Source: a virus. Taken from it: 53,874 bases of DNA. Position 1 is the first letter of the stretch. Every line of letters begins with the position of its first letter. This document shows, piece after piece, positions 30,792 to 53,874 of the stretch. The notes beneath the pieces were generated by a model. That model searched no databases, was not told the DNA's origin, and saw only the letters and a list, made by a program, of their open reading frames with translations. Both the position numbers and the translations under genes were made by a program. The stretch is from the IMG/VR virus record IMGVR_UViG_3300031787_000162, positions 1-53,874 of that record. The stretch is one strand, 5' to 3'.

Positions 30792-30805
30792 AGCAGGAAA
30801 TTATT

Positions 30806-33800: not shown

Positions 33801-36800
33801 CAAGATCATGGCCGGTTGGACCTATTGATTTAAGATTTGACAGAGAGCGTGGAGTTTGGACTTGTCCATCACCAAATAAAATTATAGTTGCTAGATTAAA
33901 AGAAAAATTAAATCCTAATGGTAAGGCCAAAGCTGAATTAATTAATCCTAAAGCTGATGATATTAATTTTTATGAAAAATATCATATCTCTGGGCCAAAT
34001 GGCGAGAATATTAAGCTTAATATGGATCAAACAGAAATCTTTGTATATGATTTCTTAGGACAAACTATAGATGCATGTACTAATATTTATGTTTATTATG
34101 ATGACAATAGATATATTGTGCTTAACTCTGTTCAAGATAGCACACCAACACCAGTTACTAATATTATTAGATTTAGAAATATTAATATTTGTAATATAGT
34201 AGATGATCAAACTGAAAAGCCAGAAGATTATTATGGTGTTGAAACATGGGGGGCACATGCTGGATATGGTGATAAATATTATAACCATCATACTTTTGGT
34301 ATAAGAATAGATTGTGATGGTAATCCAATAGATTCAGAAGGCAATTCGCCTAACGAGACGTTTACCATCGACCTTATTAAAGAAGAACCATCAAAATGGC
34401 TAATACAACTATTAGACAATGCTGGTAAATTTGGTCCTTCATTTGGTAGATTTGAGGATGAGCAACAATGGAAAAACGAAGCATCCACTGGTTATGCTGT
34501 ATATATACCTCCATCGTCTGGTAATTTAACAGAGATTGATCCAGCCGATGCTGAAGGTCGGGGTGATTTTCCTGGTATTACAAATGATCATACAATTATA
34601 ATTCCGGGTGATTATAGTATTAAATTTAATTACGAAATTATATCTAGCGCTCAAAATGGTATTGTAGATCCTCTTAGATTTCAAATTTTATGTAATGATG
34701 AGTTATTAGTAGATACTGGTTTTATAGGAGATGATCAATTTCAGAATATTTTCCCATATAACGAAAAATGGGGAGGCACAGAGACCACTGGTTGTTCCAC
34801 TTTTGATATTACATCAGATTGCTCTTCATTACAAATCAAAATTATTGGATCATCAAACTATAAATATTCATTAAGCGCTGCATCCGAATGCTCTCTTGGC
34901 CTAAAGCCACATTGCAAAATGAATAATTCATGTTCTGATATGAGTAAATATGATATACTATTTATAGAGAGCTATGCTAGATTTCTAGAAGGTTTTTTGT
35001 CAGAAGATTTATATTTACCAAGTGGTTCTCCTCCACCGTCATCAGAACAATATAAAATAGATAATCCAGATGGTAATGCAGCAATTACTGGGATAATCTG
35101 TTATGGAGATAGTCCAAATGGACAGACACCAATATATCTAGACTCTGACTACAACCGACTTTCAGTGAGAGTATTTGATCCATTTAGAGATACTCCTGAA
35201 GAACAAAATCCATTCATTAAATTAAAATCTGGAGATAAAGTTTTAACCATTTTTGATGAAAGAACTAAAAAATATCATATATGGCAATCATTAAAAAAAG
35301 AAGATAAAGTAGTTAAATTTGCTTTGATGCAAGATAAGAATATAACCGATATTACAGTATCTGGCGTATTGGTGGATCAGTGGTCCAGACCCTTAGATAG
35401 AAAAGGTAATTTAATTACAGAACAAGATAATTTTAGTGGAGCAACTATTGTAATTAGAGATCCATATGTAAGTAGATCGCAGTACGCCCCAGTACCCAAT
35501 AATGGTAGTTTGGGACCTAATTTAACAGCATTTGGTCCAGCATTAGGTTCGGATATTCTCGATGAACACTATAATGGTATTCCATTAGAATCATTAAGTG
35601 GAACTATATACGTACCACCATTCGTAGGGTTTGCACTACAAAGAATTCTACCTAATGAGGAAGATGAAGATGTAACCACTTACGAGATGTTCACACTAGA
35701 ACATTTTGCGCAATATGTTAAAGGTAAAATTTGTACTAAGACTCCTTCATTTGGTTTAAATAATGATAAATATTATTTAGGTACCAAATTACCAACTAAA
35801 GGATTAGGATATAGTGATGGTATTGTTCCAGTAGCTAGAGAAACGTCTGAATTACCAAAAGGCGATTTAATAGTAAGATATCCAATATTTTTTGGTAGCG
35901 GTCTACCACCAATAGGTGGAGATTTAGTAGTTGGAGCTACTGATAGTACTTACGAGAATATTGACGGATGTGAATTTACAGCCATGCTAGATACATATTT
36001 ATCTAGTACAACTAATTTAGTTTATAAAATCACAGAAACCGTTAAGTTTGCACCAGAAGGTAAAATAACTTTTCTAGATTATGGTGCGGCTGATGAATTA
36101 AATAGATCTGATACTACTGTACCTATGTATATTAACATTGATGGTCCTCCTAATCCCTATATGAAAGTTGAATGGTATGAAGGATTTATGTGGGATACTA
36201 GTAGAAGTTTAAGTAATCTAGAAAAAACAAAAGTATTTAATAGAGACGAATGGATGGAAAAAGGATTATTCATCCAAGGTTCATCAGTTACTGTTTATTT
36301 TAAAAATTTAGATGAGAATGGCGATCCAGAATATAGTGTAGACAATGGTGGAACTGTAGCTAGAGTTATACAAAGGGTTAATGATGCTAGCAAGCCCGGC
36401 TTATTTGGTTTTCCTGGCGGGGTACCAAGGACTGATAGAGAAATTAAAAAAGAAGATGATTTTATGCTAGGTTTACGTTTTGAGGATGAGTATCTTGATA
36501 TGGCTATTGAAAAACCTATCATTGATATGACAGACAATCAACAATGGATGACCTATCAATCAGGTATAATAACTGGTATATGGGATGAAACTTTAGATCC
36601 AGAGGTAAAAAATTGCAAATATAAGATCATATATGCACAAGAAGCTCCAGTTATAATTACTGGTCAAGCAATAGCTAAATTCTCTCCTACCCAAACATCT
36701 GCTGTTATAGCAATAAGCGCTCTGTATGCTACCTGTGATGGCAAATCAAGAGATCCTATACCTAATCTACTAACGAAAGTCAGTAATCCTATGGGTTATG

Positions 36801-36922
36801 GAGCTATGGCAGGAGACCATGTCACAATACAAAGAGTATATACTGGCGTTAATGCAAATAATGCAAATTATAATTATATTATTATAGGTACAGGAGATCC
36901 TCCAGGAGCGCTGAAATCATGA
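30806..36922 (+). CDS. Very large tail-tip protein (2038 aa)
   Basis: This 2038-residue protein is the largest tail protein after the tape measure and lies where host-specificity (J/Tal-like) proteins are encoded. It starts MSDCNCDPLPLPSCNP with PSPSPECG soon after, and has another Pro/Ser linker (PLPSPSIYPSPETSFPP, about residues 684-700). It is mostly beta with many aromatic residues and scattered Cys. I chose the ATG at 30806 because CAGGAA lies upstream; an earlier GTG at 30773 has none and overlaps the previous gene. No enzyme motif is visible. The receptor-binding role is inferred. Confidence 0.55.
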   Translation: MSDCNCDPLPLPSCNPIPSPSPECGRIRMFFGYEESPGAIAPGQLDKLFYTSTVDKDFIQKGFTIPQFSCSILKKSNILKNLTEFTLSEAELLSTGSFESWILFGSYYITASDGVLSQNPAPFSIECMRDAAINIDMAKFKQEAAKMWVSFNRYADTQSIYSVLKTIFGGDDAEPKLTNVTITECDAVKLNQRIEKLRVCYEWIKNIHDTYYGREFLVKIADPKGSDPNSTFPGICIKNEQGDNPQFNINDPKAFYIEGNGASQGFYTSDEIADGGFPKKGTSDILGLTNINWVQNNDGKIESFVKVGKISGGSDASCPELTTHYLYKKFTTYDAGNNTERCVDWNIDLTKLDISNYYIDNNYLYLKSNIENRFYVNSEGTWIKITLSEKVPLTSIDSNVIGGVVLFSYLLNMTNRNNHPEIDGNPKQSIVNYYNYFKNNNNIVLDGARGNSSQLNLAKTEPPCLIPQGVVIPLKSNVYRYGPYYYAGDPTTEEGGGAELIIQENIAPWNFIKANDTSFPGTYPYCAMDSFGKNLAKLAPKGLQKLEKGRVTAAGLPCHKLGKSVDVGYDPTKGSGPTLLTDINVDFGSGGFTTTYNFSTYSPRLGKTEKYLLDNWQDNIKNSQYINSYLRNEQNKVQTIKKDYNKKLIEKQYYFTPLTKHKHSTPNRLIFSGYYLIPESQLTPLPSPSIYPSPETSFPPDASCDPSGVPNYGINGSVPPNFDGSEDRRRYIFAESTEAYSIEYLQNTYFQLAGMSMDGFYSPVSLRGVGDNPKDNKEFNKSSINKFTSNSSWKNKARLPRFAMRCNFNGKFIEWDSKTDIDDFTNYDKSGYPIASKTRDEIPPFKFKTSSSQGSNCYLLPINQRYLNPYTTRAMLFAEDTSQGYEPWDARKNNTQKGFVMSSIVFGDTYAEYQITHTNTYDAIPGSINIYDTDEAIRQQINNFRIPALRGPLVLQGWGYDTTGKPIPNSADAAINTELGQFRKDQLTDKFQTGWLSNPRSWPVGPIDLRFDRERGVWTCPSPNKIIVARLKEKLNPNGKAKAELINPKADDINFYEKYHISGPNGENIKLNMDQTEIFVYDFLGQTIDACTNIYVYYDDNRYIVLNSVQDSTPTPVTNIIRFRNINICNIVDDQTEKPEDYYGVETWGAHAGYGDKYYNHHTFGIRIDCDGNPIDSEGNSPNETFTIDLIKEEPSKWLIQLLDNAGKFGPSFGRFEDEQQWKNEASTGYAVYIPPSSGNLTEIDPADAEGRGDFPGITNDHTIIIPGDYSIKFNYEIISSAQNGIVDPLRFQILCNDELLVDTGFIGDDQFQNIFPYNEKWGGTETTGCSTFDITSDCSSLQIKIIGSSNYKYSLSAASECSLGLKPHCKMNNSCSDMSKYDILFIESYARFLEGFLSEDLYLPSGSPPPSSEQYKIDNPDGNAAITGIICYGDSPNGQTPIYLDSDYNRLSVRVFDPFRDTPEEQNPFIKLKSGDKVLTIFDERTKKYHIWQSLKKEDKVVKFALMQDKNITDITVSGVLVDQWSRPLDRKGNLITEQDNFSGATIVIRDPYVSRSQYAPVPNNGSLGPNLTAFGPALGSDILDEHYNGIPLESLSGTIYVPPFVGFALQRILPNEEDEDVTTYEMFTLEHFAQYVKGKICTKTPSFGLNNDKYYLGTKLPTKGLGYSDGIVPVARETSELPKGDLIVRYPIFFGSGLPPIGGDLVVGATDSTYENIDGCEFTAMLDTYLSSTTNLVYKITETVKFAPEGKITFLDYGAADELNRSDTTVPMYINIDGPPNPYMKVEWYEGFMWDTSRSLSNLEKTKVFNRDEWMEKGLFIQGSSVTVYFKNLDENGDPEYSVDNGGTVARVIQRVNDASKPGLFGFPGGVPRTDREIKKEDDFMLGLRFEDEYLDMAIEKPIIDMTDNQQWMTYQSGIITGIWDETLDPEVKNCKYKIIYAQEAPVIITGQAIAKFSPTQTSAVIAISALYATCDGKSRDPIPNLLTKVSNPMGYGAMAGDHVTIQRVYTGVNANNANYNYIIIGTGDPPGALKS

Positions 36923-41295: not shown

Positions 41296-41759
41296 AGTTG
41301 AAATACTTTCTTACTGGTTTGAAATAATAGTTCTTTCCATAGTGCAATATTTTCATTACTATTTATGTCATATGACAATACTTTATCATGAATAGAATGC
41401 CAAGACTTATATATAGACATATTAGTAGCAATTTTAAATAAACATGGTAAATTATCTATAAATTTTATTTTATCATTATCTAATAAATCAGTTTTAGCAT
41501 AATGGTCAACTGTAATAATTGGTATATGATATCTAATAGATAATTCTCTACATATATCATAATGAGTAATTTTATTATTACAAATAATGAGATTTGGATG
41601 ATAATTACCATAATACAAATTATCATATAAAATGTATTTATGAGATAGCTTATTTAAAAAGTCTAAAAATGCTTTTGGTTCTTGTCCAAGAAGCACTATG
41701 TTTAATATTGAATTTTGAGTAAGTAACTCTCGGTCCAGTATAGATTGTGTCATATTCAT
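41292..41759 (-). CDS. Half-glycosyltransferase-like protein (155 aa)
   Basis: This 155-residue protein has a Rossmann-like pattern: NIVLLGQEPKAFLDFL, LIICNNKITHYDI, IPIITVDH. It ends with a Trp-containing helix (LWKELLFQTSKKVF). That is the plan of a GT-B glycosyltransferase N-terminal domain without the nucleotide-sugar-binding C-terminal half. It overlaps both neighbours by ATGA. It may pair with another half in the cassette. No named family is recognised. Confidence 0.45.
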   Translation of the reverse strand: MNMTQSILDRELLTQNSILNIVLLGQEPKAFLDFLNKLSHKYILYDNLYYGNYHPNLIICNNKITHYDICRELSIRYHIPIITVDHYAKTDLLDNDKIKFIDNLPCLFKIATNMSIYKSWHSIHDKVLSYDINSNENIALWKELLFQTSKKVFQL

Positions 41760-42865
41760 ATTAATATATGATCCTTAATACTATTCATATCGAATATTTG
41801 TTTCTGATAATTATTAATTAATTGCTCTTTATTATCTTTTGACATATTATATGCTGATCTCATTTGAGATTGTAATGATATAATATTAGGTTCGTTCCAT
41901 TCTTCATATATGGTAAATATATTTTTATTTAAAATAGAATTTGACATATAAACACTAGAATTAATACTATCTACCATAAGAGCATTGGAACTATTTAAAT
42001 ATGTTGAGGATCCAATATTTTTTGTTGTAATAATTAATTTATTTGCGAGCATAGCTTCAATAGCACATGACCCCATACCGTCAGCTTTACAAGCATTAAC
42101 ATAGCAATCTCCATCTTTGTGGAGTCTTATTATATCTTGATCTGACAAACGACCAACAACGTAATCAATATCACAATATTGTGGTTTCCTCAAAGCTACT
42201 TTAATTTCATTAATATCATATTTTATTGATTCTTGTAATTCTTCTGGTTTTTTATCATAGTCATCTGTCTTAATAAAAAGTCTTACATTATCCTGTCTAT
42301 TAAACTCTAACAAATAAGCTAATATGATACCTTTAATATTTTTTTTATCCGTATATTGTCCAATAGTATAAAAGATAAAAGGATTTGTTTCTTTTTTATC
42401 TACAAAAAATGGACTATAAGATTGTTCATAGGCTCCAATATTGTATGGTTCTGGCAATAATCTGATTGGTTTAGTAACACCAGCATCATATGCTGAATGT
42501 AATGCATTAGTGGAATTAACAAGTATTTCATCCATCAGATTTAATTTTGATGACCAGCCAGATCTATTTATAGATCTTGTTTCAATTTCAACTATACCAA
42601 TATTTTTACCAAATCTTTTGTCATATACATAATATTCTGGATACCCATACTGAATAACAAAATCATAATAATTATAATATGCATTTTCATAAGGTTCAAA
42701 TGTTTTCAAGTCGAGTGGATTTTGAATATGACTATTAGTAAAGAATAAAGGCTTGATAGATAGATTAATATCAGATTTAGTAGCTAAACAATTAATATAT
42801 CTTCTGGAGGCATATCCTAAACCATTACTATCTCTATATGGACCTATAAATAATATGTTTTTCAT
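41756..42865 (-). CDS. GT-B glycosyltransferase (GT4-like, 369 aa)
   Basis: This 369-residue protein starts with NILFIGPYRDSNGLGYASRR, the glycine-containing acceptor-domain loop of GT4 enzymes. It later has FIFYTIGQYTDKKNIKGIILAY and the GT4 signature region DGMGSCAIEAMLANKLIITT, with the E-x7-E-like acidic residues for the donor. It should transfer a sugar from a nucleotide-sugar. It overlaps both neighbours by ATGA. Target and sugar are unknown. Confidence 0.8.
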   Translation of the reverse strand: MKNILFIGPYRDSNGLGYASRRYINCLATKSDINLSIKPLFFTNSHIQNPLDLKTFEPYENAYYNYYDFVIQYGYPEYYVYDKRFGKNIGIVEIETRSINRSGWSSKLNLMDEILVNSTNALHSAYDAGVTKPIRLLPEPYNIGAYEQSYSPFFVDKKETNPFIFYTIGQYTDKKNIKGIILAYLLEFNRQDNVRLFIKTDDYDKKPEELQESIKYDINEIKVALRKPQYCDIDYVVGRLSDQDIIRLHKDGDCYVNACKADGMGSCAIEAMLANKLIITTKNIGSSTYLNSSNALMVDSINSSVYMSNSILNKNIFTIYEEWNEPNIISLQSQMRSAYNMSKDNKEQLINNYQKQIFDMNSIKDHILI

Positions 42866-44508
42866 TTTTTACTATATTCAAAAAAAGATATGAGTTTGGG
42901 TAAGGATTGATAATTATTACTAATTCTCATCATTTCTATTGCGTGTTTATTATTTGCATATACTTCTAATAATTTAATTGCATCTTGTCTTTTAAATTGA
43001 TATACTTGTTGACCATTTACAATAGTTTCATCATCTAAAGAACGTATTAAATCCTCAATAAATGTTGTAGATTTTAATTTTTTATCTTTAATTATATTAT
43101 CGACAATATCATATATAAAATCTCTATTATTTTTAATATTCATTACAGAGTGTTTTAAATTAATATCAAGCATTGGAGCATTCCATGCTCTTTTAGCATT
43201 AATATTAATATTATCAAATATTTCTTCATATACTTTAGCCGTAAAATCCCAGCTATATTTAGTTAATAATTTTTGTCTAGTATTTTTACCAATTGTATTT
43301 AATTGTGTTAATGGCATGTTGATTAAATTATTCAACACATCAAAACATTGTTCATTATCTGGATAACACCTATCAGCATTAGTTTCTTGTTCTCTAAATA
43401 TTCTCTTAACTGGTATTAGTTTGGCTTCAACATTACGACCAACCTCGCCCATTGCTCCATACTCTACGGTTACTACAGGTATTCCAGCTGATGCAGCTTC
43501 AACAGGAGGGATACCAAATCCTTCGCAAATAGCATATTGTACATAAATATCAAATAGATTATATATTTGATTTAATTCAGTATCGCTTAATCCATTGTTC
43601 GGATTCCATAAGTAATTACGCTTTACATTACATTTATGACATAGTTTTTTAGGACCTTTATATGTTGAGCAAGAAACATGATTACATGCTTTACATTTGT
43701 AGGTAAATATAATATTATTAGCAATATTATGTTCTAGTAATAATGCAGGAATATCCCAGCATAAAGCATCTGGAAAAGATGTATGAAGATAGAGTAATAA
43801 TTTTTTATTTTTATTTTTATTTACCAGTTCGCTAAAAATTTTAATTAAATCGGGTATTAGTTTTCTTTTTTGATTTCTCATAACAGTACCTATAATTATA
43901 GAGTCTGTTGGTAAATCAAATTGATTTTTATGAAATTTTTTATTAAAACCCAGAGGCTTAAAAGTATTTGTATCTACAGCATCACTAGCTACAGGTCCAA
44001 TATTATTTTGATTATAATAATATTTTTGTATTAAGTTTTGTTTTGCCCATTCTGTGTGAAACAATACTAGATCAGCATTTTTCAATGTATTAATACTATC
44101 TATTTTTTGAGGATCAGAATCATATGTTGGATTAATAATCCAATGATAATAATCTCTCAGTGGTGATACTTCTTCAAAAGTATAATTCCAAAAATCCCTA
44201 ACATCAAATACGATATGTGGCTTAAAATCTAACAAAGCAAATTCAAATCTCCATTGTCCATATTGATTGGTTGGACTAGAGATATACTCAGCATACAAAG
44301 GGTCTTGCTGAGCAACAGCAACAGGATATACTTTCCATTTTTCAGTTTTTGGTATATTTGGTGTTCTATAGCACGACAATTCTGCTATTTCATACTTATC
44401 GGTATTATATAATCTAGTTAAAATTTCTTTAGTATAATTACCAAATCCAGACTTTATATGACTAGATTCGCCAACCATTAATATTCTTTTTTTAATATGA
44501 TGGGACAT
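42862..44508 (-). CDS. GT-B glycosyltransferase with inserted zinc ribbon (548 aa)
   Basis: This 548-residue protein starts ILMVGESSHIKSGFGNYTKE and has CEGFGIPPVEAASAGIPVVT, the GT4 family nucleotide-sugar site. Between the two domains lies an inserted C-x2-C ... C-x2-C module (CKAC, CHKC; about residues 268-292), probably a zinc ribbon, which is rare in GT4 enzymes. A helical C-terminal extension of about 120 residues follows. The ATG is 15 bases after the stem of the SSB terminator and has no clear Shine-Dalgarno site. It heads the overlapping glycan cassette. Confidence 0.8.
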   Translation of the reverse strand: MSHHIKKRILMVGESSHIKSGFGNYTKEILTRLYNTDKYEIAELSCYRTPNIPKTEKWKVYPVAVAQQDPLYAEYISSPTNQYGQWRFEFALLDFKPHIVFDVRDFWNYTFEEVSPLRDYYHWIINPTYDSDPQKIDSINTLKNADLVLFHTEWAKQNLIQKYYYNQNNIGPVASDAVDTNTFKPLGFNKKFHKNQFDLPTDSIIIGTVMRNQKRKLIPDLIKIFSELVNKNKNKKLLLYLHTSFPDALCWDIPALLLEHNIANNIIFTYKCKACNHVSCSTYKGPKKLCHKCNVKRNYLWNPNNGLSDTELNQIYNLFDIYVQYAICEGFGIPPVEAASAGIPVVTVEYGAMGEVGRNVEAKLIPVKRIFREQETNADRCYPDNEQCFDVLNNLINMPLTQLNTIGKNTRQKLLTKYSWDFTAKVYEEIFDNININAKRAWNAPMLDINLKHSVMNIKNNRDFIYDIVDNIIKDKKLKSTTFIEDLIRSLDDETIVNGQQVYQFKRQDAIKLLEVYANNKHAIEMMRISNNYQSLPKLISFFEYSKK

Positions 44509-44510
44509 AA

Positions 44511-44544
44511 ATTTAAAATAAAACCCCCACGTCTTAGGTGGGGG
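44511..44544 (-). terminator. Rho-independent terminator after SSB
   Basis: On the minus strand CCCCCAC (44538-44544) pairs with GTGGGGG (44524-44530) with a seven-base loop, followed by TTTTATTTTAAAT. It lies 19 bases after the SSB stop. The next gene in the same direction begins two bases past its tail, so cassette expression would need readthrough. Confidence 0.88.
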
Positions 44545-44562
44545 AATTATGATTAGGGTTTA

Positions 44563-44940
44563 TTAGAAAGCAACAACTTCTTGATTATCTTCACTTTTCA
44601 GTTTTCTTTTACTAGATTTATTAATTTTAGCAAAATTATTAACCCTAACTTTCATAGTTGAGTGCTTATGACCATCCTTTTCCCAACTATCATTTCTTAG
44701 TGATCCTTCTACCATAACTAAATCACCCTTTTTTAATGATTCAGATATAGCTTCGGCACCAGTATCCCAAGCCTCACATTGAACAAAAGTGGTGATCTTA
44801 TCCGTTTCTCCATTTTGTTTAGTAAATTCTCTAGATACAGCAACTGTAAAGTTTGCTACTGAAGTTTGTTTACCATTAATATTAATATTTTTTACTTCTG
44901 GATCTCTAGCTAAATTTCCTTTTAAAATCACAAGATTCAT
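44563..44940 (-). CDS. ssb: Single-stranded DNA-binding protein
   Basis: This 125-residue protein is an OB-fold SSB: MNLVILKGNLARDPEVK, TSVANFTVAVSREF, FVQCEAWDTGAEAI, KGDLVMVEGSLRND are standard elements of bacterial SSB. The C-terminal tail is short and ends VVAF, unlike the acidic DDDIPF tip of bacterial SSB, so it may recruit different partners. AAAGGAG lies before the ATG. It has its own consensus promoter, a nearby palindrome and its own terminator, so it may be a single-gene transcription unit at high level. Confidence 0.95.
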   Translation of the reverse strand: MNLVILKGNLARDPEVKNININGKQTSVANFTVAVSREFTKQNGETDKITTFVQCEAWDTGAEAISESLKKGDLVMVEGSLRNDSWEKDGHKHSTMKVRVNNFAKINKSSKRKLKSEDNQEVVAF

Positions 44941-44966
44941 TTAAATTCTCCTTTAGAAAAACCAAT

Positions 44967-44980
44967 TGGTCATTTGACCA
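44967..44980. promoter_or_regulatory. Operator-like palindrome downstream of the SSB promoter
   Basis: TGGTCATTTGACCA is a perfect inverted repeat (6+2+6). It overlaps a second palindrome, CCAATTGG, at 44962-44969. It starts ten bases past the -10 hexamer, overlapping the expected transcript start region or the early leader, where a repressor would block transcription. No dedicated repressor is identified. Confidence 0.45.
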
Positions 44981-44989
44981 TACACACAT

Positions 44990-45017
44990 ATTATAGCTGC
45001 GTCAAGAGTTTTGTCAA
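44990..45017 (-). promoter_or_regulatory. Consensus sigma-70 promoter for SSB
   Basis: On the minus strand TTGACA (45012-45017) and TATAAT (44990-44995) are both perfect and 16 bases apart. The leader to the SSB ATG is about 40-45 bases. This is the strongest promoter I see in the window. Confidence 0.85.
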
Positions 45018-45019
45018 TC

Positions 45020-46558
45020 TCACAGCTGCCAACACTTTTTGATAATTAAACTATCTTTTTTCTTTGTTTGTTCTAAATTAAACATAATAGTATTATTTTT
45101 AAATAATAAATGTTTATATGTGTCAAATTCTTTTGGGAAAGCAATAATGTCGCACGATCCGGTACTATCAGAGATTTTGATAAATGCCATTTCTTGACCA
45201 GGATTAGCACCCTTCTTTGTCTTGATAATGCTAATATCATCTATTTCCGCACCAACTATAATAGTTTTTAATCCTAGGCACGACTTACTTAGTGATTGAC
45301 AATCTGTATTGGCGGCTTCTAAATCTCGTCCATCAATGACAGAACACGTTATACTAACTCCCAATAGTTGTTTTTCTGAAGTAGCTATCCATTCATAATT
45401 ATCATCTAAACTATATGCTGGTTTTTGAATTGCTGATATTAGAGAAGAAATTGTTTGCAGTCTTTTTTTATTAACAAATTTTAATAATTTAGATAATATA
45501 TTTTCTATATTGTCGTTTAAATCAATATTATTTATAATGATTTCTTTTTCTCTAGCGCTCAAATTAGATATGATATCTAAGTAAAATAATATTTTCTTTC
45601 TAGACACCTTTAAATAATCAATAGCTCCAACAGAAACAATAGCTTTAGCTGCTTTGCTATTAATTTGATCTAATATAAAAAATAATAATTCATTTATTGT
45701 AATATTATTAATATCTATTTTAGTAGAAGATACTATATCTAGTATTTTATTATAAACAGATTCACCAACACCTTTAATATTTGTTAAACCAAAATATATA
45801 ATATTTTGATCTAGAATAAATTCTTTATTTAATTTACGTAAGTCTGGTCTATATATATTAATATGGTTCTCATGGGCATTATGTACTAATTCTGCCACCT
45901 CTTTTATTGGATCTATTTTATCTTTTGCAAACTTTAAGTATGAGGTAAAAAATTCTTTAGTATAGTGCGTTTTAGCATAGGCTGAGACATAGGCATTAAG
46001 AGCATAACTAATAGCATGGCTTTTATTAAATGAATATCTTTGACTTTTTTCTATCCAGCTAAAAATTTGCTCAGCCTCATGCTCATTAACAATGTTAGCA
46101 GATTTAGTTTTTTCCATGAATAATGTTTTGATTTTAGCCATTTCTTCAGGTTTTTTCTTGCCAATAGCTTTTCTTAACATGTCAGCTTCTGATAAATTAA
46201 AGTTAGCTATGCTTTGACATATTTGCATTGCTTGTTCTTGATAAACCATCTCACCATATGTTTCTTTAAGAATAGGTTCCAAACTATGATGAAAATAATC
46301 AATAGACTCAGTTCCATTTTTTTTATCTATATAGTGATTAGAAACTGTTTTTCCTTCTCTAACGGCTTCTAAACAACCAGGTCTAAGAATACTGATTAAA
46401 GCCGCTAAATGTTCTATAGTTTCTGGCTTTAATTTTTTAGACATACTTTGACCAAGTCTTGACTCTAGTTGAAATATCCCTTTTGTATTACCAGAGCCAA
46501 TTAAATACCAAGTTTTTGGACAATTTAAATCAATACTATTAAAATCTAGTCTTGTCAT
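45020..46558 (-). CDS. DNA polymerase III alpha, C-terminal fragment
   Basis: This 512-residue protein begins where bacterial DnaE residue about 580 would continue: GIFQLES (27-33), YQEQAMQICQ and AIGKKKPEEMAK (about 100-140), YSFNKSHAISYAL (about 175-187). A helix-hairpin-helix (NIKGVGESVYNKI, about 257) and an OB domain at the end (GQEMAFIKISDSTGSCDIIAF) follow. It contains the rest of the fingers and the DNA-binding domains, but no catalytic Asp. No clear beta-clamp-binding motif or tau-binding tail is seen. It overlaps the DnaQ gene by ATGA. No intein is visible at its N-terminus. Confidence 0.9.
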   Translation of the reverse strand: MTRLDFNSIDLNCPKTWYLIGSGNTKGIFQLESRLGQSMSKKLKPETIEHLAALISILRPGCLEAVREGKTVSNHYIDKKNGTESIDYFHHSLEPILKETYGEMVYQEQAMQICQSIANFNLSEADMLRKAIGKKKPEEMAKIKTLFMEKTKSANIVNEHEAEQIFSWIEKSQRYSFNKSHAISYALNAYVSAYAKTHYTKEFFTSYLKFAKDKIDPIKEVAELVHNAHENHINIYRPDLRKLNKEFILDQNIIYFGLTNIKGVGESVYNKILDIVSSTKIDINNITINELLFFILDQINSKAAKAIVSVGAIDYLKVSRKKILFYLDIISNLSAREKEIIINNIDLNDNIENILSKLLKFVNKKRLQTISSLISAIQKPAYSLDDNYEWIATSEKQLLGVSITCSVIDGRDLEAANTDCQSLSKSCLGLKTIIVGAEIDDISIIKTKKGANPGQEMAFIKISDSTGSCDIIAFPKEFDTYKHLLFKNNTIMFNLEQTKKKDSLIIKKCWQL

Positions 46559-47268
46559 ATGAGTTGAGTTTGAGCAAAAGAATTTTTAAACTTAATTTTA
46601 GAAGATAGATTTCTATGAAGCCTCATAAATCTTATCAAGATTTCAGCACAGTCTTTGACATCTTTAATAGCGTCATGAGCATTGGTTTTATCTATACCGA
46701 GATAATCTCTAAGAGTATCTAATGATAGTGATTTAATATCAGAAGAATTTTCTAGCCATAACCAAGCAATATTCATTATATCAATTTGATCTCGTGGATG
46801 AAATAAGTTAGTATTATTTTCTTTATTAACATTGCCATATTTTTGGCTAAGTCTATGTACTATTTTCATATCAAATCTAATAATGTTATATCCACACGCT
46901 ATAGGTGAACTAAATTGACTTTTAGTTTTTCTATTTTTTAGATGATAATTATCTAAATAACCAATAAATTGTTGCCAACTATGTTTTTGTGATGGATATT
47001 TAGTCCACGTATTAAAAATTTCTGATTTATCCACTCCTTTCACTTTGCCGTGCCACTCTAGTATATCGCTATCGTCATATAAAGTAGCATCAGATTTTGG
47101 ATTATCTTCAATTCGCTCAGGTTTTAGATAAACATTAAATTCTGAATCTTTAATAATTTCTAGTCTATTATTGTCTATCATTACTGCCGATAATTGGACT
47201 GGACTACACTCTAATGGATTTGAGCCATCAGTTTCAAAATCGAACACGCAAATATTATTTTTAATCAC
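46555..47268 (-). CDS. DnaQ-like 3'-5' proofreading exonuclease
   Basis: This 237-residue protein has the DEDDh exonuclease motifs: FDFETDG (9-15), NIIRFDMKI (Exo II) and NAHDAIKDVKD (Exo III, with the H-D-A-x3-D catalytic pattern). It is the epsilon-type subunit that removes mismatched nucleotides. It is encoded between the two polymerase III alpha fragments, overlapping the C-terminal one by ATGA and the 57-residue gene by GTGA. It starts with GTG at 47268. Translational coupling to its polymerase is likely. Confidence 0.93.
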   Translation of the reverse strand: MIKNNICVFDFETDGSNPLECSPVQLSAVMIDNNRLEIIKDSEFNVYLKPERIEDNPKSDATLYDDSDILEWHGKVKGVDKSEIFNTWTKYPSQKHSWQQFIGYLDNYHLKNRKTKSQFSSPIACGYNIIRFDMKIVHRLSQKYGNVNKENNTNLFHPRDQIDIMNIAWLWLENSSDIKSLSLDTLRDYLGIDKTNAHDAIKDVKDCAEILIRFMRLHRNLSSKIKFKNSFAQTQLI

Positions 47269-47438
47269 TCTGTCACCAATTCTACTTCTTGATTAGGGGA
47301 TACCATTATTTTATTTTGGTCAGTATTATTTACAGCATTGAGCCTTTTGCAGCATGATACTTTAATTTCATCTGTTTTTGTATATTCAATATTATTGAAC
47401 TTAAACTTTTGACCCACAGCTACTTCAGCAAACTTCAT
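47265..47438 (-). CDS. Small basic protein between polymerase fragment and DnaQ (57 aa)
   Basis: This 57-residue protein starts MKFAEVAVGQKFKFNNIEYT, with KVSCCKR later and PNQEVELV near the end. It looks like a small, beta-rich phage protein of a type found in several phages with no known function. AAAGGAG lies six bases before the ATG. Its TGA overlaps the GTG start of DnaQ. Its place between polymerase and exonuclease suggests a replisome accessory, which is inference. Confidence 0.6.
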   Translation of the reverse strand: MKFAEVAVGQKFKFNNIEYTKTDEIKVSCCKRLNAVNNTDQNKIMVSPNQEVELVTE

Positions 47439-47458
47439 AGTTATCTCCTTTAATTTAA

Positions 47459-49336
47459 TTAAGAATTAATCATATCATTGACACACATTATTTTATCTAA
47501 AAGGGCTATACCCAATATGTCAAACTTTATCACACCAAGAGCGTCCAAATCATTCATCTCCAAACCAGCAATATTTTGTTCGGTTTTAGTATCAAAAATC
47601 ATTGGACATATTTCGTTTAGTGGCATAGCAGCTATTGCAATACCAGCAGCATGCTTAGATTGATTATATTTTGTGCCCTCTATTCTTATAGCCTGCTCAA
47701 ATCTTTTTGCAAGCTGCCCTGTTAATTGACCATTTTCATCAATCTCACACCAATCTTTAAATTTATCAGGATTATTCTCTAATGCCCATTTAATAATTGA
47801 TGCGGATCCTTCCTCTTCTTTAATTTCTTGTAATTCATCAGCAATCTTAGCTTCGTCAGGAATATTTTTTGTAATATTATTCATCTCTTCAAAAGATAAA
47901 TTATCATATACTCTTAAAACTTCCTTCAGGGCTCCTCTACCCTTTAGAGTATTAAAAGTGATCATTTGTGATACTTTATCATGCCCATATTTATTTTTAA
48001 TATATTCTATAATAGTTTCTCTTTGATTAATAGGCACATCTACATCAATATCTGGCATACTAATTCTATCTTTTGTATTTCTACCAGCATTATAAAATCT
48101 TTCAAATAGTAAATTATATTTAATTGGATCAATATCTGTAATGCCAATTAAATATGATACTAAGCAACCAGCAGCACTACCTCTCCCTGGGCCGGGTAAC
48201 CATCCATTACTCTTCACGAAATTGAGTATATCCTGTACTATTAAAAAATAACTAGATAGACCAGCACCCTCTAAAACCTCAAGCTCATATTTGATTCTAT
48301 CAACATAAATTTTATGATTATCTTTTGAAATATTAGATTCTATCTTCTTTTTCCACCCCTCTCTACACAATTGTCTTAAATATTCAGATTCTGACTTATA
48401 TTGTTTTGGATAATCAAATTTTGGTAAGATTGGCTTATTTAATGGATTAAATGGCTCGCACATTTCTGATATTTTAATAGTGTTAGCAATCTCTTCTTTA
48501 GTATATAGTTCCGCAATAGTTTCGTTATCTAAAATATAGAAAGATTCGCTATTGAAAAAATGATTAACGCCAATATTTTGTCCAGCAACTATTTTTTTTG
48601 AGATTTCTGGAAGTGTAGTTTTTAGACTGCTACATAATAGTATTCTTTGATCAACTGCATCATTACTATTAGAATAGTAACTCTCTATACCGGCAACAGT
48701 ATTATGATAATTATTTGTTGCGCAAAAATCTCTAAATGTATTAAATATATTTTTTTGATTATAAAAATTATCAAATTGTTGAATTTCTATAAACGTATTA
48801 TCTTCAGTAAACATTTGATGTAACTGATCTAGATGTTGATTAAAGCTGGTTTGCCAATTAGGTATTAGTTCATTTTCTATGGTAACAGTATTCCATAATG
48901 TAGAACCATAATATCCAGTAATACAAATCAAATGTTCTGTATTGATTTGAGATAATGCAGTTAAGTCTATGCGTGGTTTTTTATAAAAAAAGTCAACACC
49001 ATTACATAAAGATATAATCTTAATAAGATTTTTCCATCCATCAAGATTTTTACATAGTAAAGTTATTCTAGATAATTGGTCATTATGTGAATTATGTATT
49101 TTAGCAGAATCTTTACATATGAAAATTTCACAACCTAAAATTGGCTTTATATCATAATTTTGCATTTCTTTAAAAAATGCTACAGAACCAGCAATTGTAC
49201 CAGCGTCGGTAATTGCACACGCATTAATTGATAATTCTTTACATCTTTCCGCAATATCTTTAGGTTTTGATAAGCCTAATTGTAAACTATAATGAGAATG
49301 TACATGCAATGGTATATATTTCATATTTCTATTCAT
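47459..49336 (-). CDS. DNA polymerase III alpha, N-terminal fragment (PHP and catalytic core)
   Basis: This 625-residue protein has an N-terminal PHP domain (PLHVHSHYS, 8-16) and palm/thumb elements. GWLPGPGRGSAAGCLVSYL (about 376-394) is the incoming-nucleotide site. MPDIDVDV (about 426) holds the two catalytic Asp. VIKFDILGIAL (about 602) holds the third. It stops 15-20 residues later, where bacterial DnaE continues without a break. The two fragments total 1137 residues, close to E. coli DnaE at 1160. The ATG overlaps the nuclease stop by ATGA; an alternative ATG lies at 49324. No intein segment is seen at its C-terminus. Confidence 0.95.
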   Translation of the reverse strand: MNRNMKYIPLHVHSHYSLQLGLSKPKDIAERCKELSINACAITDAGTIAGSVAFFKEMQNYDIKPILGCEIFICKDSAKIHNSHNDQLSRITLLCKNLDGWKNLIKIISLCNGVDFFYKKPRIDLTALSQINTEHLICITGYYGSTLWNTVTIENELIPNWQTSFNQHLDQLHQMFTEDNTFIEIQQFDNFYNQKNIFNTFRDFCATNNYHNTVAGIESYYSNSNDAVDQRILLCSSLKTTLPEISKKIVAGQNIGVNHFFNSESFYILDNETIAELYTKEEIANTIKISEMCEPFNPLNKPILPKFDYPKQYKSESEYLRQLCREGWKKKIESNISKDNHKIYVDRIKYELEVLEGAGLSSYFLIVQDILNFVKSNGWLPGPGRGSAAGCLVSYLIGITDIDPIKYNLLFERFYNAGRNTKDRISMPDIDVDVPINQRETIIEYIKNKYGHDKVSQMITFNTLKGRGALKEVLRVYDNLSFEEMNNITKNIPDEAKIADELQEIKEEEGSASIIKWALENNPDKFKDWCEIDENGQLTGQLAKRFEQAIRIEGTKYNQSKHAAGIAIAAMPLNEICPMIFDTKTEQNIAGLEMNDLDALGVIKFDILGIALLDKIMCVNDMINS

Positions 49337-50325
49337 TCGCCAGGAGCTTTATAAAAACCAAATGTGTGATTGGGATGTTTATATTCTTGAATCACCGAGT
49401 TCATACCCTTGATCTCTATGTCGTGGTGTATTTGTTCACACTTAGACATTATAGCACCACATGGGGTGGTTTGTCCATACCTATATTCTTCCAACGGAGC
49501 TATGGAAGTGCCGTCAAAGGTTGTTTTTCCAAAATGGCATAACTTGCTACACATCCAACTCTTATGTAATTGCGGTTTTTTAACTGTAACAATTTTTTCA
49601 AATTTTTGTTTTATCATTTGTTCAGTTTTTAAAAGATCCTTTTTTTCAAAACAGATAGAGAATGGTCCTCCATCATTAATAAAATTAATTGTTACCATAA
49701 TGTGATCCACATTAGGATATAACTGACTAGCAGCATAATGATATATTCTTAACTGAGGATCATTTTCTAAACATTCTTGGCTTTTTTGTTTACCGGTAGC
49801 CCAGTTTAATCTTTTGCCAGTTTTCCAGTCTACAATCTCATAAAAATTATCGTCTATTTTTGTAATTAGGTCTATAGTTCCTTTTAGTGCCAATTGACCT
49901 TCTAATTTTCCATCGGGAGTATCAAATGAATATTTAGACCACGGTTTATCGATAATAAAGTCAAAATGTTGTTCTGGACAAACAATATCTCTATTTCTTG
50001 GGTCAAACATGCCATTATTAAAAGATAATGTTTTTTCTACCCATTTTGTACAATCTATTTTGTCCTTTTCTGTCCACTTATGATGTTTGTTTGCGGTGCT
50101 ATAGTAATCATATACTTGATCAATAATAGTATATAAATTATAATTCATAGTATCTATATCACCAACAATATCATCAGTAATATTGTTTATATTGTCTTGA
50201 TTAGCTTTTTTAATAAATGCTAATATTTCTAAAATTTTATGTACGATAGTTCCTTTATCGGCCTTTTGATTTGATGGACCTCGCCATCCAAGAACATATT
50301 CAATAAAGTATTGTTGTTCACACAT
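49333..50325 (-). CDS. RecB/Cas4-like PD-(D/E)XK nuclease with Fe-S cysteines
   Basis: This protein has MCEQQYFIEYVLG, then KGTIVHKILE, DLITKIDDNFYEIVDWKTGK (the D ... E-x-D-x-K-like active site) and QLRIYHYAASQLYP, the QxxxY helix. A Cys in the first helix plus C-S-K-L-C and later Cys could bind a 4Fe-4S cluster, as in AddB/Cas4. The first ATG gives 330 residues, but the frame is open upstream and encodes YFRSSSYNTHS, which is the expected start of this family. A non-ATG start (ATT at 50370) would add 15 residues. It lies between kinase and polymerase genes; end processing in replication or recombination is likely. Confidence 0.85.
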   Translation of the reverse strand: MCEQQYFIEYVLGWRGPSNQKADKGTIVHKILEILAFIKKANQDNINNITDDIVGDIDTMNYNLYTIIDQVYDYYSTANKHHKWTEKDKIDCTKWVEKTLSFNNGMFDPRNRDIVCPEQHFDFIIDKPWSKYSFDTPDGKLEGQLALKGTIDLITKIDDNFYEIVDWKTGKRLNWATGKQKSQECLENDPQLRIYHYAASQLYPNVDHIMVTINFINDGGPFSICFEKKDLLKTEQMIKQKFEKIVTVKKPQLHKSWMCSKLCHFGKTTFDGTSIAPLEEYRYGQTTPCGAIMSKCEQIHHDIEIKGMNSVIQEYKHPNHTFGFYKAPGE

Positions 50326-50363
50326 ACTGTGTGTATTGTATGAACTACTTCTAAAGTAAGTAA

Positions 50364-50963
50364 TTATAATGGTAGGACGCCTTTCTTTTTTAGGAAAGAT
50401 AATACAGCATAAGTTTGTTGTTCTATTGTCAGCATATGATTAAATATAACGGTATCAAAATTTTGTTGATTATAGTTTTTTGGATCTAGTGCTGTTTCAC
50501 TATCATGATTAGAATTAAATGGATTTCTGGTTAATTTGATTACTAATCCTCTAGCGTCTTTAATGGCATCTACTTCATTAGGAAATCTGCAATCAGCAAT
50601 TATGGCCAGTTGTGGCTTATCTTCATTAATTTTCTGAATAGTGGCATTAGCCCATATATTATGTTGTAGTTTCCTAAAAATATCAGTTCCAACAAATTGC
50701 ATTACTTCTCTTGCGGTTAATTGTTTTCCATCCCAATAATTATTAGTTAATTCATTCTTATTATCGTCAGTTCCATAACACTGATCATAAGTTAGACCAA
50801 GTAATTTTATACAAATATCTTGCTTTAAAGGATCTGCAAAGTTATATATTTTGACATCATTAGATATTTCAGGATAAAATGTGTTATAATATCTAATAAT
50901 ATCTTGCGAACATGTGGTTTTGCCAGATTGTTTTCTTCCGGCAAAAGCTATAATTTGTGTCAT
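50364..50963 (-). CDS. Deoxynucleoside monophosphate kinase
   Basis: This 199-residue protein has a Walker A loop, AGRKQSGKTT (8-17), and a T4 gp1-like plan: IYNFADPLKQDICIKLLG, then AREVMQFVGTDIFR, then IADCRFPNEVDAI. It phosphorylates dNMPs to dNDPs, raising DNA precursor supply. It overlaps the primase gene by ATGA. Its TAA lies within the probable upstream start region of the nuclease gene. Confidence 0.88.
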   Translation of the reverse strand: MTQIIAFAGRKQSGKTTCSQDIIRYYNTFYPEISNDVKIYNFADPLKQDICIKLLGLTYDQCYGTDDNKNELTNNYWDGKQLTAREVMQFVGTDIFRKLQHNIWANATIQKINEDKPQLAIIADCRFPNEVDAIKDARGLVIKLTRNPFNSNHDSETALDPKNYNQQNFDTVIFNHMLTIEQQTYAVLSFLKKKGVLPL

Positions 50964-52084
50964 ATAAATTTCCTTATTTCGTTATGTACTTCTTCATCAG
51001 ACATTTCAGCAATATCATTTTTACTAATTTTAATATTATGTATATTATATGTTCTATAACATTTATTATAAATTTGCGTCCTAGCTTTTTCCCCAGCTTC
51101 ATCATTATCCATTATTACTATAATAGACATAGCTCCAGATATATCCAATAATGTTTTTTGCCTATCGCTTAGATTTGATCCAAAAATAGCTACAGAATTA
51201 TGAATATTATTTTGTTCTAATTTCCATACATTTCCTGGACTTTCAACCAAAATTACATAACCAGATGATTTTATATAATCTTTTGCAAACCATAGATTAT
51301 AAAGATTTTCTTGAGTTTTAAATCCTGTACTATGTCTCCATTTTGGAAATTTGTTGATACAGTCTTGGTTTTGTTCATGATAATTGGCACACTGTTTACA
51401 TTTGTCATAAATTATTCTACCAGTACATCCTATCATGTGAGTATAATCTATATCATAGATAGGTACTACGGCCCTATGAGACATTTCTTTATTGTCTGCG
51501 ATACAATCGCCTACATCATATTTATTTAAAATCTCTTGAGAAAAACCACGATCCATAAAGTATCTACTAGGAATTTCAAGATTTTTGCGTACTATGTTCC
51601 TTGTTACGCTTCTATTATTTGGATTGGTATTAGTGCTAACAGGTGCTAGTAATTTACTATTATTAATAAATATATTTTTATTTTGTTCATCATTAGATAC
51701 CTTGATCTCAGATAATGACAAATTTAAAAAATCAATTGCATAATTTAATGCTTCTTGAAAAGAAACTGTTGGGTTTCCATTTTTATTCCACTGTTTATTG
51801 TTATGAGACAAAACACCTCTAATAAAACCAATAATTGAAGCTTTGAAAGTATGTTCACAATGGTGTGTACGACAATTCCAATTGCCTCTATATGTATCTC
51901 CAGTATAATACAGATTCAATGCGCTATCATTATCTCCGCCATGAATTGGACAACTCATAGTAATGAATCTACCATTATCTCGATATTCTAAATTTAGATG
52001 ATCTAATAAATCATAAATACGATCACATATCTTATCGCATATTATTTTAATTTTATTTTGATTAATTGAAGTTGATTTGGTCAT
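50960..52084 (-). CDS. DnaG-like DNA primase
   Basis: This 374-residue protein begins with a zinc-binding domain: CPIH (45-48) and C71-x4-C76, of the CHC2 type. A TOPRIM domain follows, with VILVESPG and MDNDEAGEKA, supplying the Glu and D-x-D catalytic metal ligands. A middle segment with SRYFMDRGFSQEILNKYDVGD is the usual RNAP-basic domain start. It makes primers for replication. I chose the ATG at 52084; an ATG at 52132 would overlap the helicase by 71 bases and add residues not expected in the family. Confidence 0.92.
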   Translation of the reverse strand: MTKSTSINQNKIKIICDKICDRIYDLLDHLNLEYRDNGRFITMSCPIHGGDNDSALNLYYTGDTYRGNWNCRTHHCEHTFKASIIGFIRGVLSHNNKQWNKNGNPTVSFQEALNYAIDFLNLSLSEIKVSNDEQNKNIFINNSKLLAPVSTNTNPNNRSVTRNIVRKNLEIPSRYFMDRGFSQEILNKYDVGDCIADNKEMSHRAVVPIYDIDYTHMIGCTGRIIYDKCKQCANYHEQNQDCINKFPKWRHSTGFKTQENLYNLWFAKDYIKSSGYVILVESPGNVWKLEQNNIHNSVAIFGSNLSDRQKTLLDISGAMSIIVIMDNDEAGEKARTQIYNKCYRTYNIHNIKISKNDIAEMSDEEVHNEIRKFI

Positions 52085-53525
52085 CTTGCTCTTCTTCAAT
52101 AGCAAATCCTGTACCATTTTTTGAGTCCCCACTATGTAATAATTCTATTCTAGTTTTACCTTCGGTGATTTTGGCACACCAACCTTTCATATGACAATTG
52201 ATATAGTCATTATCTTCGATTCCAGATCCATGTCTGCTAATAACAGGTATTAATTTTCTATTACCATGATTGCTTCCATCTTCGGCTATCTCTTCATCGC
52301 TTTTGCGTTTAAAAATCGTAAAATTACTACATAGCCAAATAATTCTATCGGATCCACTAGCAGTATCTGTTGTTTCTTTAGTTATTCCATCTCTATTTAA
52401 TTGTACAAATGCTACTACTGGTATCTTATATTTGCAAGCAAAATTATGTAAGGATGTCATCATAAATCCTAACACTTGATATTCTTTCATATCTTGACTA
52501 ATACCAGCACTATCCATAAGCTTTAGATAATCATAAAATATTACACACGGTTTGGCTGTACCGTCACTATTTAATCCCACATCTTTAATTATCCATCTTT
52601 TCATAATAGATAATTGTTCTTCAAATGGTTTGCCTGCTATTGGTTTATAATATAGTTTAGCCTCTTTTAATTCCTTCATACCCTTTAATATTTTATCTCT
52701 AAGTACAGTAGATTCATTAAATTTGCCAGTTTCTATTTTATTAATTTCTATTTCACTAATCATTGCTAATAATCTATTAATATGATCCTCTTTAGTCATT
52801 TCAGTGTCTAGATTAAGAACTGGAATTTTAAGTTTACTAGCAATATGAAAGCCCATATTATCAGCCAATAACGTTTTACCGGTTTTGGGTCTGGCCGCAA
52901 TAACATTAATTGTACTTTTTCTTAATCCTCCACCAATAGCAGCATCATAGGCTGGAAATCCTGTAGAAATACCAACTTGATTTATTGGATTTTTAATTAG
53001 ATTATCTATATAATCATCTATACCAACAGAAACATGGGTCGCATTATTTTCTGTATCATTCAGTGTAGATGCAAAATTAAATATTCTATCTTCAGCAAGA
53101 TTTAATATAGAAGTAATACTTTCTGAGCCATTTACTTCTAATATTTTTTCTTGAGCTGTTTCTAACTCTTTATGTAATTTTCTAGCTATTTCTAATTTTT
53201 TTATTTTTGCTGCAAATGTAATTAGATTATCTTTACTAGCTGGAAAATCAAGAATCGCTTTTAAATGTAATGTTTCATCTTTACGATTTAAAATATGATC
53301 TAGTGATAAATCTTTTGCAGCAGAATATATAAGTGCTATGTCGATTTGAGTATTTTTACTGCCAGCATCAAAGATATATTTTAGGCATTTATAAATAATT
53401 TTATTACTATCTATAGTAAATGTCTGATCATTAATTAAATCAGAAATCTCAATATATGCTTCATCGCCAAATTTACATAATATTGACAATAAAGCTCTTT
53501 CTGCTGACGGATCTGTTAAAATCAT
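52062..53525 (-). CDS. Replicative DnaB-like helicase
   Basis: This 487-residue protein starts MILTDPSAERALLSILCK, the DnaB N-terminal helical domain. It contains a RecA-type motor with Walker A AARPKTGKTLLA (about 207-218), NLDTEMTKEDHINR and CVIFYDYLKLMD, plus FVQLNRDG. It would unwind the fork and recruit the primase, encoded next. I chose the ATG at 53525 because AGGA lies six bases upstream; an ATG at 53549 lacks a good site. Walker and DnaB signatures make this secure. Confidence 0.94.
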   Translation of the reverse strand: MILTDPSAERALLSILCKFGDEAYIEISDLINDQTFTIDSNKIIYKCLKYIFDAGSKNTQIDIALIYSAAKDLSLDHILNRKDETLHLKAILDFPASKDNLITFAAKIKKLEIARKLHKELETAQEKILEVNGSESITSILNLAEDRIFNFASTLNDTENNATHVSVGIDDYIDNLIKNPINQVGISTGFPAYDAAIGGGLRKSTINVIAARPKTGKTLLADNMGFHIASKLKIPVLNLDTEMTKEDHINRLLAMISEIEINKIETGKFNESTVLRDKILKGMKELKEAKLYYKPIAGKPFEEQLSIMKRWIIKDVGLNSDGTAKPCVIFYDYLKLMDSAGISQDMKEYQVLGFMMTSLHNFACKYKIPVVAFVQLNRDGITKETTDTASGSDRIIWLCSNFTIFKRKSDEEIAEDGSNHGNRKLIPVISRHGSGIEDNDYINCHMKGWCAKITEGKTRIELLHSGDSKNGTGFAIEEEQDDQINFN

Positions 53526-53527
53526 AT

Positions 53528-53874
53528 TTATCCTGCGTTTGTTGAACAATTATTACATTTATATCTATCTACAGAATCACTAATCAAAACTGGATTTACA
53601 GATTCTTTTTTGCCACAAGATCTACATACTACAGATATTGGTTTAAAAGATCTATTTCTTGGTGTTGGTGGAAATTTATTTAATGCTTTATCGACTATAG
53701 TATCTTCCTTATGCAAGTCTTTAACTCCCATGGTTAAAAATCTATTATTCGATGAAGGATCATACTTAGGCGATCTAGTTTTTGATCTAATATTATTTTG
53801 TTTCTGTATTTTAGTTTTTGGTTTTGTTTTTTTAGATTTTTTAGGAGTATTTTCATTTGGCAATAAAGACTGTA
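53528..53874 (-). CDS. Zinc-ribbon protein, 5' end outside window
   Basis: This minus-strand reading frame ends at 53528 and stays open to the right edge, so its start is probably beyond it; a TTG at 53863 is only a possible start. The N-terminal part is very basic (KKSKKTKPKTKIQKQ). It ends with VCRSCGKKES and RYKCNNCSTNAG, two C-x2-C pairs of a zinc ribbon. It directly precedes the helicase gene with a two-base gap. A nucleic-acid-binding or replication accessory role is inferred. Function is not recognised. Confidence 0.65.
   Translation of the reverse strand, partial: QSLLPNENTPKKSKKTKPKTKIQKQNNIRSKTRSPKYDPSSNNRFLTMGVKDLHKEDTIVDKALNKFPPTPRNRSFKPISVVCRSCGKKESVNPVLISDSVDRYKCNNCSTNAG

Follow-up and report, generated by a model that had tools for sequence, protein, structure and literature searches.

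The virus record IMGVR_UViG_3300031787_000162 of IMG/VR, analysed here over its whole length of 53,874 bp (the window), encodes the DNA polymerase III alpha subunit, DnaE, as two separate genes that lie 0.9 kb apart on the minus strand. The two products, an N fragment and a C fragment that are separately translated, very probably form a non-covalent two-part DnaE replicase, whose association and activity we infer from the sequences. Replicative polymerases almost always have a single-chain catalytic subunit; this phage would copy its DNA with a C-family (DnaE-type) polymerase made of two polypeptides.

Make-up of the two halves

Together the N and C fragments come to 1137 residues. Against PRK05673 (NCBIfam, 1146 positions), the N fragment matches positions 3–575 and the C fragment positions 581–1053, leaving a five-position gap; the sole missing part is the C-terminal tau-binding region past position 1053, which is accessory and not defining. 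The N fragment carries a PHP domain (Pfam PF02811) and a full-length PF07733 match (1–260 of 260), and the C fragment carries fingers (PF17657), HhH (PF14579) and, weakly, an OB fold (PF01336). The features of a DnaE-type alpha subunit, a three-Asp palm and an N-terminal PHP domain followed by fingers, HhH and OB fold, are all present, spread over two chains. What is absent is the single-chain form, usual for DnaE and not strictly defining, which is replaced by two genes in all 195 loci described below.

In alignments with solved structures, the N fragment reaches residue 573 of E. coli alpha and the C fragment sets in at residue 584, which places the cut in the stretch that links the fingers to the last palm helix. 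The N fragment stops 19 residues past the third catalytic Asp, D606, within the 15–20 residues given by an initial annotation of this DNA, and the C fragment begins 26 residues ahead of GIFQLES, where about ten had been claimed. Otherwise the description in the initial annotation holds: the coordinates and lengths of both genes (Table 1), their summed length, their coverage of almost all of DnaE, and a split at the palm/fingers border without an intein.

We built AlphaFold2 models of the halves from 43-row alignments. The isolated C fragment reached a mean predicted local distance difference test score (pLDDT) of 90 and the isolated N fragment 85.5, and the top Foldseek matches of both were polymerase III alpha structures, the best for the N fragment being 2hpi. 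In the N model, palm residues at about 385–425 and the last 15 residues fall to a pLDDT of about 50–58, although residues 385–425 belong to one of the most conserved stretches. Low confidence in this part of the model fits an absent partner and is no proof of one.

In the proposed enzyme, the N fragment would supply the PHP domain, the thumb and the palm, which holds the three catalytic Asp, and the C fragment the fingers, HhH and OB fold. The cut falls in the surface loop that leads from the last helix of the palm into the fingers, so that no conserved element is lost; the halves should dock by the normal palm/fingers interface, with no need for covalent joining. The precedent we count for such an enzyme is the split polymerase 43A/43B of Aeromonas phage 25, whose halves co-purify and are active (PMC2988022). 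Like the window pair it is a two-gene phage polymerase, but it belongs to family B and has another fold and cut.

Spread and conservation of the split

We gathered loci from three viral scans and one genome scan (IMG/VR and metagenome-assembled genomes, MAGs) and examined 207. All 195 loci that hold both ends (12 do not) share the order N, exonuclease, C in separate frames, and 157 remain after duplicates are collapsed. A fused N–C gene was found in none of the 195, nor did the three viral scans return a fused relative inside the clade; among contigs, fusion was seen in L302, which lies outside the clade, and in L304. The initial annotation had proposed a search of related phages for the same split and had allowed that an assembly or sequencing gap might explain it. 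Because the split is shared by 195 loci, about 157 of them distinct, such an error is ruled out. Identity to the window drops to about 40–45% among the split relatives, and the split is therefore older than a large clade.

Two MAG contigs, binned as Lokiarchaeota (L130) and Flavobacteriales (L131), have the same arrangement. Since both may be misbinned viral DNA, no host is claimed. Likewise, TerL of the window gave weak matches alone (about 23–29% identity, to Bacillus, Microcystis, Clostridioides and other phages), and for this reason no placement is made. Gut records labelled 'Bacteriophage sp.', which are unverified and carry no annotation, were considered as the closest phage relatives and not used further; one of them, MT835501, holds an intact, bacterial-looking DnaE.

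We then looked for other replicases. In 20 records of 54–233 kb, each of which has a single PF07733 region and a single PF17657 region, located in different frames, PolA (PF00476), PolB (PF00136) and DnaN (PF02767) gave no match, whereas the controls matched; the split DnaE is the sole recognisable polymerase. The phage sliding clamp model PF02916 also gave no match, but neither did its control. In the L076 record, the palm domain reads in pieces with stops, probably sequence errors.

Several points weigh against a two-part replicase. The IMG/VR contigs have no completeness estimate and a further polymerase may lie outside the records, so the absence of other polymerases is suggestive only. 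The Pfam models would not detect a polymerase that has diverged too far, and a host polymerase could also serve the phage. The low model confidence at N residues 385–425 has other possible causes.

Conservation is pronounced in both halves. No variation occurs among 43 relatives at the palm residues D429, D431 and D606 or at fingers residues of the C fragment, including K26, R59, R129, K130, K134, K135, N178, S180 and H181. The ratio of non-synonymous to synonymous substitution rates (dN/dS) against one relative, L002, is 0.07 for the N fragment, 0.05 for the exonuclease and 0.04 for the C fragment. Both halves, judged by these values, are under purifying selection with invariant active-site residues. 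Distances for the N and C fragments correlate among 39 relatives (r = 0.92; 0 of 2000 permutations as high), which shows co-inheritance, not contact.

The PHP metal site of the window polymerase has degenerated. Active PHP exonucleases carry the metal-site motif HHDHEH[C/H]DH (PMC12926913). The window has HHLAERYEY, with six of nine positions off consensus (D20L, H45A, H90R, H142Y, D218E, H220Y), whereas the consensus is kept at D20, H45, H90, H142 and H220 in 40 of 43 relatives. Under the published definition, the window PHP domain counts as inactive. The window thereby seems to resemble the E. coli state, in which proofreading is left to DnaQ.

The break between the genes and competing explanations

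The break, whose content the initial annotation omitted, holds a 57-aa open reading frame (ORF) and a gene for a DnaQ-like exonuclease; it contains no homing endonuclease gene. The exonuclease matches PF00929 (E 3.7e-09) and phrog_192 (DNA polymerase exonuclease subunit, 3.5e-20), and its DEDDh residues lie in FDFETDG, YNIIRFD and AHDAIKD. The small ORF has no Pfam or PHROG match. With its Cys motif, it is kept between the N and exonuclease genes in most nearer relatives and is missing in L053, L057 and the L037 group. Most nearer relatives (e.g. L026:10749–10833) also have a 20–33 residue N-terminal extension of the C fragment with an F.CGC.F motif, possibly metal binding, which the window lacks. 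That the small ORF or this extension holds the halves together is a guess.

Other genes are found in the break of particular relatives: a methyltransferase-like gene (by eye) between the exonuclease and C genes in the L037 group (L037:10802–11520), and an HNH-type endonuclease gene between the N and exonuclease genes in L083 (2090–2997) and L084. The deep split relative L303 (2785–3975) has an RNase HII-like gene and other ORFs between N and C, and no exonuclease. In L304 (1331–5560), a PHP-like gene, an exonuclease-like gene and a small ORF are followed by a DnaE core in which palm and fingers are not separated; an exonuclease is again located in the break, here after the PHP-like gene. By eye, a protein like the window glycosyltransferase at 42862–44508 is also encoded 3' of the polymerase in L303 and L304.

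The two polymerase genes belong to a minus-strand replication block with the order DnaB helicase, Toprim protein, deoxynucleoside monophosphate (dNMP) kinase, PD-(D/E)XK nuclease, N, 57-aa ORF, exonuclease, C and single-strand binding protein (Table 1). Starts in the block lie either at 4-nt overlaps (nuclease stop with N start, small ORF with the exonuclease GTG start, and exonuclease with C, as ATGA) or behind AAAGGAG, as for the small ORF. The N fragment, the small Cys-motif protein, the exonuclease and the C fragment are probably translated in a coupled manner from a single message, an arrangement that would hold the parts of the replicase in proportion, and proofreading would most likely be done by the DEDDh exonuclease. 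A bolder version, which we think rather unlikely to hold as a whole, has, in a large clade of uncultured phages, an obligately two-part core since the clade ancestor, the exonuclease and small Cys-motif protein as fixed subunits that hold or regulate the halves, a four-subunit core working without a DnaN clamp, and the loop as a general cut point of C-family polymerases.

Table 1. Polymerase genes, catalytic codons and neighbouring genes in the window
Feature	Position	Strand	Remarks
DnaE N fragment	47459..49336	-	625 aa; PHP domain, palm, thumb; catalytic Asp D429/D431/D606
Codons of palm residues D429-I-D431 (PDIDVDV)	48044..48052	-	D429, D431 invariant in 43/43 relatives
Codon of third palm Asp D606 (KFDILG)	47519..47521	-	invariant in 43/43 relatives
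Small ORF	47265..47438	-	57 aa; (V/I)SCCK...NA motif; AAAGGAG ribosome site upstream
DnaQ-like 3'-5' exonuclease	46555..47268	-	237 aa; DEDDh residues; GTG start
DnaE C fragment	45020..46558	-	512 aa; fingers, HhH, OB fold
Single-strand binding protein (SSB), next gene in block	44563..44940	-	PF00436 3.4e-26
PD-(D/E)XK nuclease, directly upstream of N fragment	49333..50325	-	PF12705 1.4e-14
Toprim-domain protein, probable primase	50960..52132	-	PF13662 7.7e-11
DnaB-type replicative helicase	52062..53549	-	PF03796 2.4e-27; phrog_19

Elsewhere in the window, two very large ORFs (18975–26696 and 30773–36922; 2573 and 2049 aa) stand among virion-type genes, and there are three glycosyltransferase genes (135–1397, 41756–42865 and 42862–44508).

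Could the halves be joined into one chain after all? Cyanobacterial DnaE, cut before CFNKSHS, is rejoined by a split intein, and trans-splicing of this kind is also seen in phage 'fractured genes'. Inteins do occur in the family. An insert follows RPG in the C gene of L063 (8186–8892), L065, L030, L034 and L035, and in L063, L030 and L034 it reads as a cis intein with an HNH-like endonuclease (at RPG|C in L063). A split intein, its halves separated by a free-standing endonuclease, breaks the N gene of L110 (5105–6317) after GPGRG, so that three pieces encode the L110 DnaE and two of them should be joined by trans-splicing. Yet the intein models TIGR01445, TIGR01443 and PF14890 (Pfam, NCBIfam), which match these relatives, match neither the N nor the C fragment of the window, where, as the initial annotation had stated, the YSFNKSH region of the C fragment is uninterrupted. 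The N tails after LDKIM are about 8–20 unconserved residues, and the C fragments start at their own homology or 20–33 residues upstream with the CGC motif, never with an intein end. Intein rejoining, whose motifs at the fragment ends the initial annotation had named as a second ground against its reading, is refuted for the window, and we give it next to no credence. Joining at the message level, with the gap as an intron or bypassed stretch, is barely more plausible. Phage polymerase genes can carry introns, and in Bacillus phage Jayan about 270 nt (L129:5212–5483) that may be an intron interrupt the palm just before the catalytic DIDTD. Rfam, however, gave no match at E up to 1 across window positions 44000–50500 and none at gathering scores in eight relatives. 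The gap holds two conserved proteins and varies from 669 to 3573 nt between the N stop and C homology across loci, and N and C are separate open frames, each with its own stop and start.

The remaining competitor is loss of function, in which the halves have decayed or been repurposed, the N fragment for instance as a PHP nuclease and the C fragment as a DNA-binding protein, with another polymerase replicating the phage. The decayed PHP metal site of the window speaks for it, as does the failure of part of the PHP region to align in some distant relatives such as L250. Against this stand the three palm Asp and the fingers residues, invariant in 43 relatives, dN/dS values far under 1, and the 20 records in which no other polymerase was found. 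We judge decay or repurposing improbable, if less so than rejoining of either kind, and retain the non-covalent two-part replicase.

Same-loop splits in other phages and the origin of the break

We next mapped cultured phages with a two-gene DnaE onto Thermus DnaE, using open-frame numbering. The cut falls within 661–670 in Fowlmouth, P1201, phiT1 and the window, and within 310–337, at the PHP/palm border, in Sienna, Rie18, Wollypog and Grayson. In the tree, the environmental clade and L303 form one group (support 100), phiT1 lies among Bacillus phages, P1201 is sister to the intact NadineRae (100), and Fowlmouth branches outside P1201/NadineRae. Parsimony on this tree suggests at least four splits at the palm/fingers loop, with several deep branches weakly supported (57–73) and re-fusions possible. 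As unrelated phages cut the same loop, DnaE, the main subunit, seems able to function in two pieces. The initial annotation had held that a polymerase assembled in this way would be unusual. The split is real and widespread, but not singular, since at least three further phage lineages break DnaE at this loop and PHP/palm cuts exist too; the earlier description understates the spread of the split and overstates its singularity.

Each known case resembles the window in part. The Mycobacterium phages Fowlmouth (gp85/gp86), MrMiyagi and Cuke also cut DnaE at the palm/fingers loop into adjacent genes, but belong to another DnaE lineage, and no further gene separates the two, which overlap directly. 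Rossellomorea phage phiT1 (gp20/gp18) and Corynebacterium phage P1201 (gp59/gp58) have two genes cut at the same loop, but on separate tree branches and with no exonuclease between: phiT1 has a 49-aa ORF there and the P1201 genes overlap. The actinophages Sienna, Rie18, Erudite, Wollypog and Grayson likewise have a two-gene DnaE, with a PHP/palm cut about 330 residues earlier than that of the window, which leaves palm to OB fold as one chain. The cyanobacterial enzyme is also encoded by two genes, but the window has an intact FNKSH region and no intein was found in it. Group 2.2 jumbo phages carry a minimal split polymerase III alpha without other Pol III domains, encoded by distant genes and accompanied by a family B polymerase (PMC7824862). 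There too the C-family catalytic module sits in two proteins thought to reassemble, whereas the window pair is complete from PHP to OB fold, its genes are close together, and the 20 records show no PF00136.

How might such a break arise? In one scenario, which concerns origin only and is compatible with a two-part replicase, a mobile element (a split intein or homing endonuclease) split the gene, left, and was replaced by the exonuclease and small ORF; the alternative is a small insertion that shifted the frame. Inteins and HNH genes within or between the polymerase genes of L063, L110, L083 and L084 favour it, as do the T4-like phages, in which genes are split by mobile endonucleases (PMC2988022). 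Against it, close intact and split pairs show the same loop cut without any element. Cuke, with 81% DNA identity to Fowlmouth, is split, whereas Indlulamithi, with 69%, is intact; the Fowlmouth/Cuke split is for this reason probably recent. Aligned to Indlulamithi, Fowlmouth and Cuke have 17 extra nt in the loop, which shift the frame, end N and add the Shine-Dalgarno-like AAGGCAGG, while a loop Met remains as the C start. This insertion makes the break, so a permissive loop can be split without a mobile element. In P1201, a GTG that follows AAGGAGG and lies within the end of the N gene can serve as start codon of the C gene, which makes a sequencing slip an unlikely cause of that split. We regard the mobile-element scenario as possible, though doubtful.

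GenBank already labels some split pairs as two 'DNA polymerase' genes, and the literature mentions one such pair in passing. A bacterial survey covers only cyanobacterial intein splits and fragmented sequences (PMC3919608), and in the open-access papers searched we found no account of this clade's split, of an exonuclease gene placed within it, or of this loop being cut repeatedly.

Taken together, phages of a widespread group seem to rely on a DnaE of two chains, and unrelated phages have reached the same cut. For annotation, this cautions that a pair of 'DNA polymerase' genes may encode a single enzyme, and the loop offers a natural split site for engineering a switchable DnaE. The arrangement makes testable whether a C-family polymerase can assemble from halves, how a split originates and becomes fixed, and whether the exonuclease and the small protein have a role in assembly.

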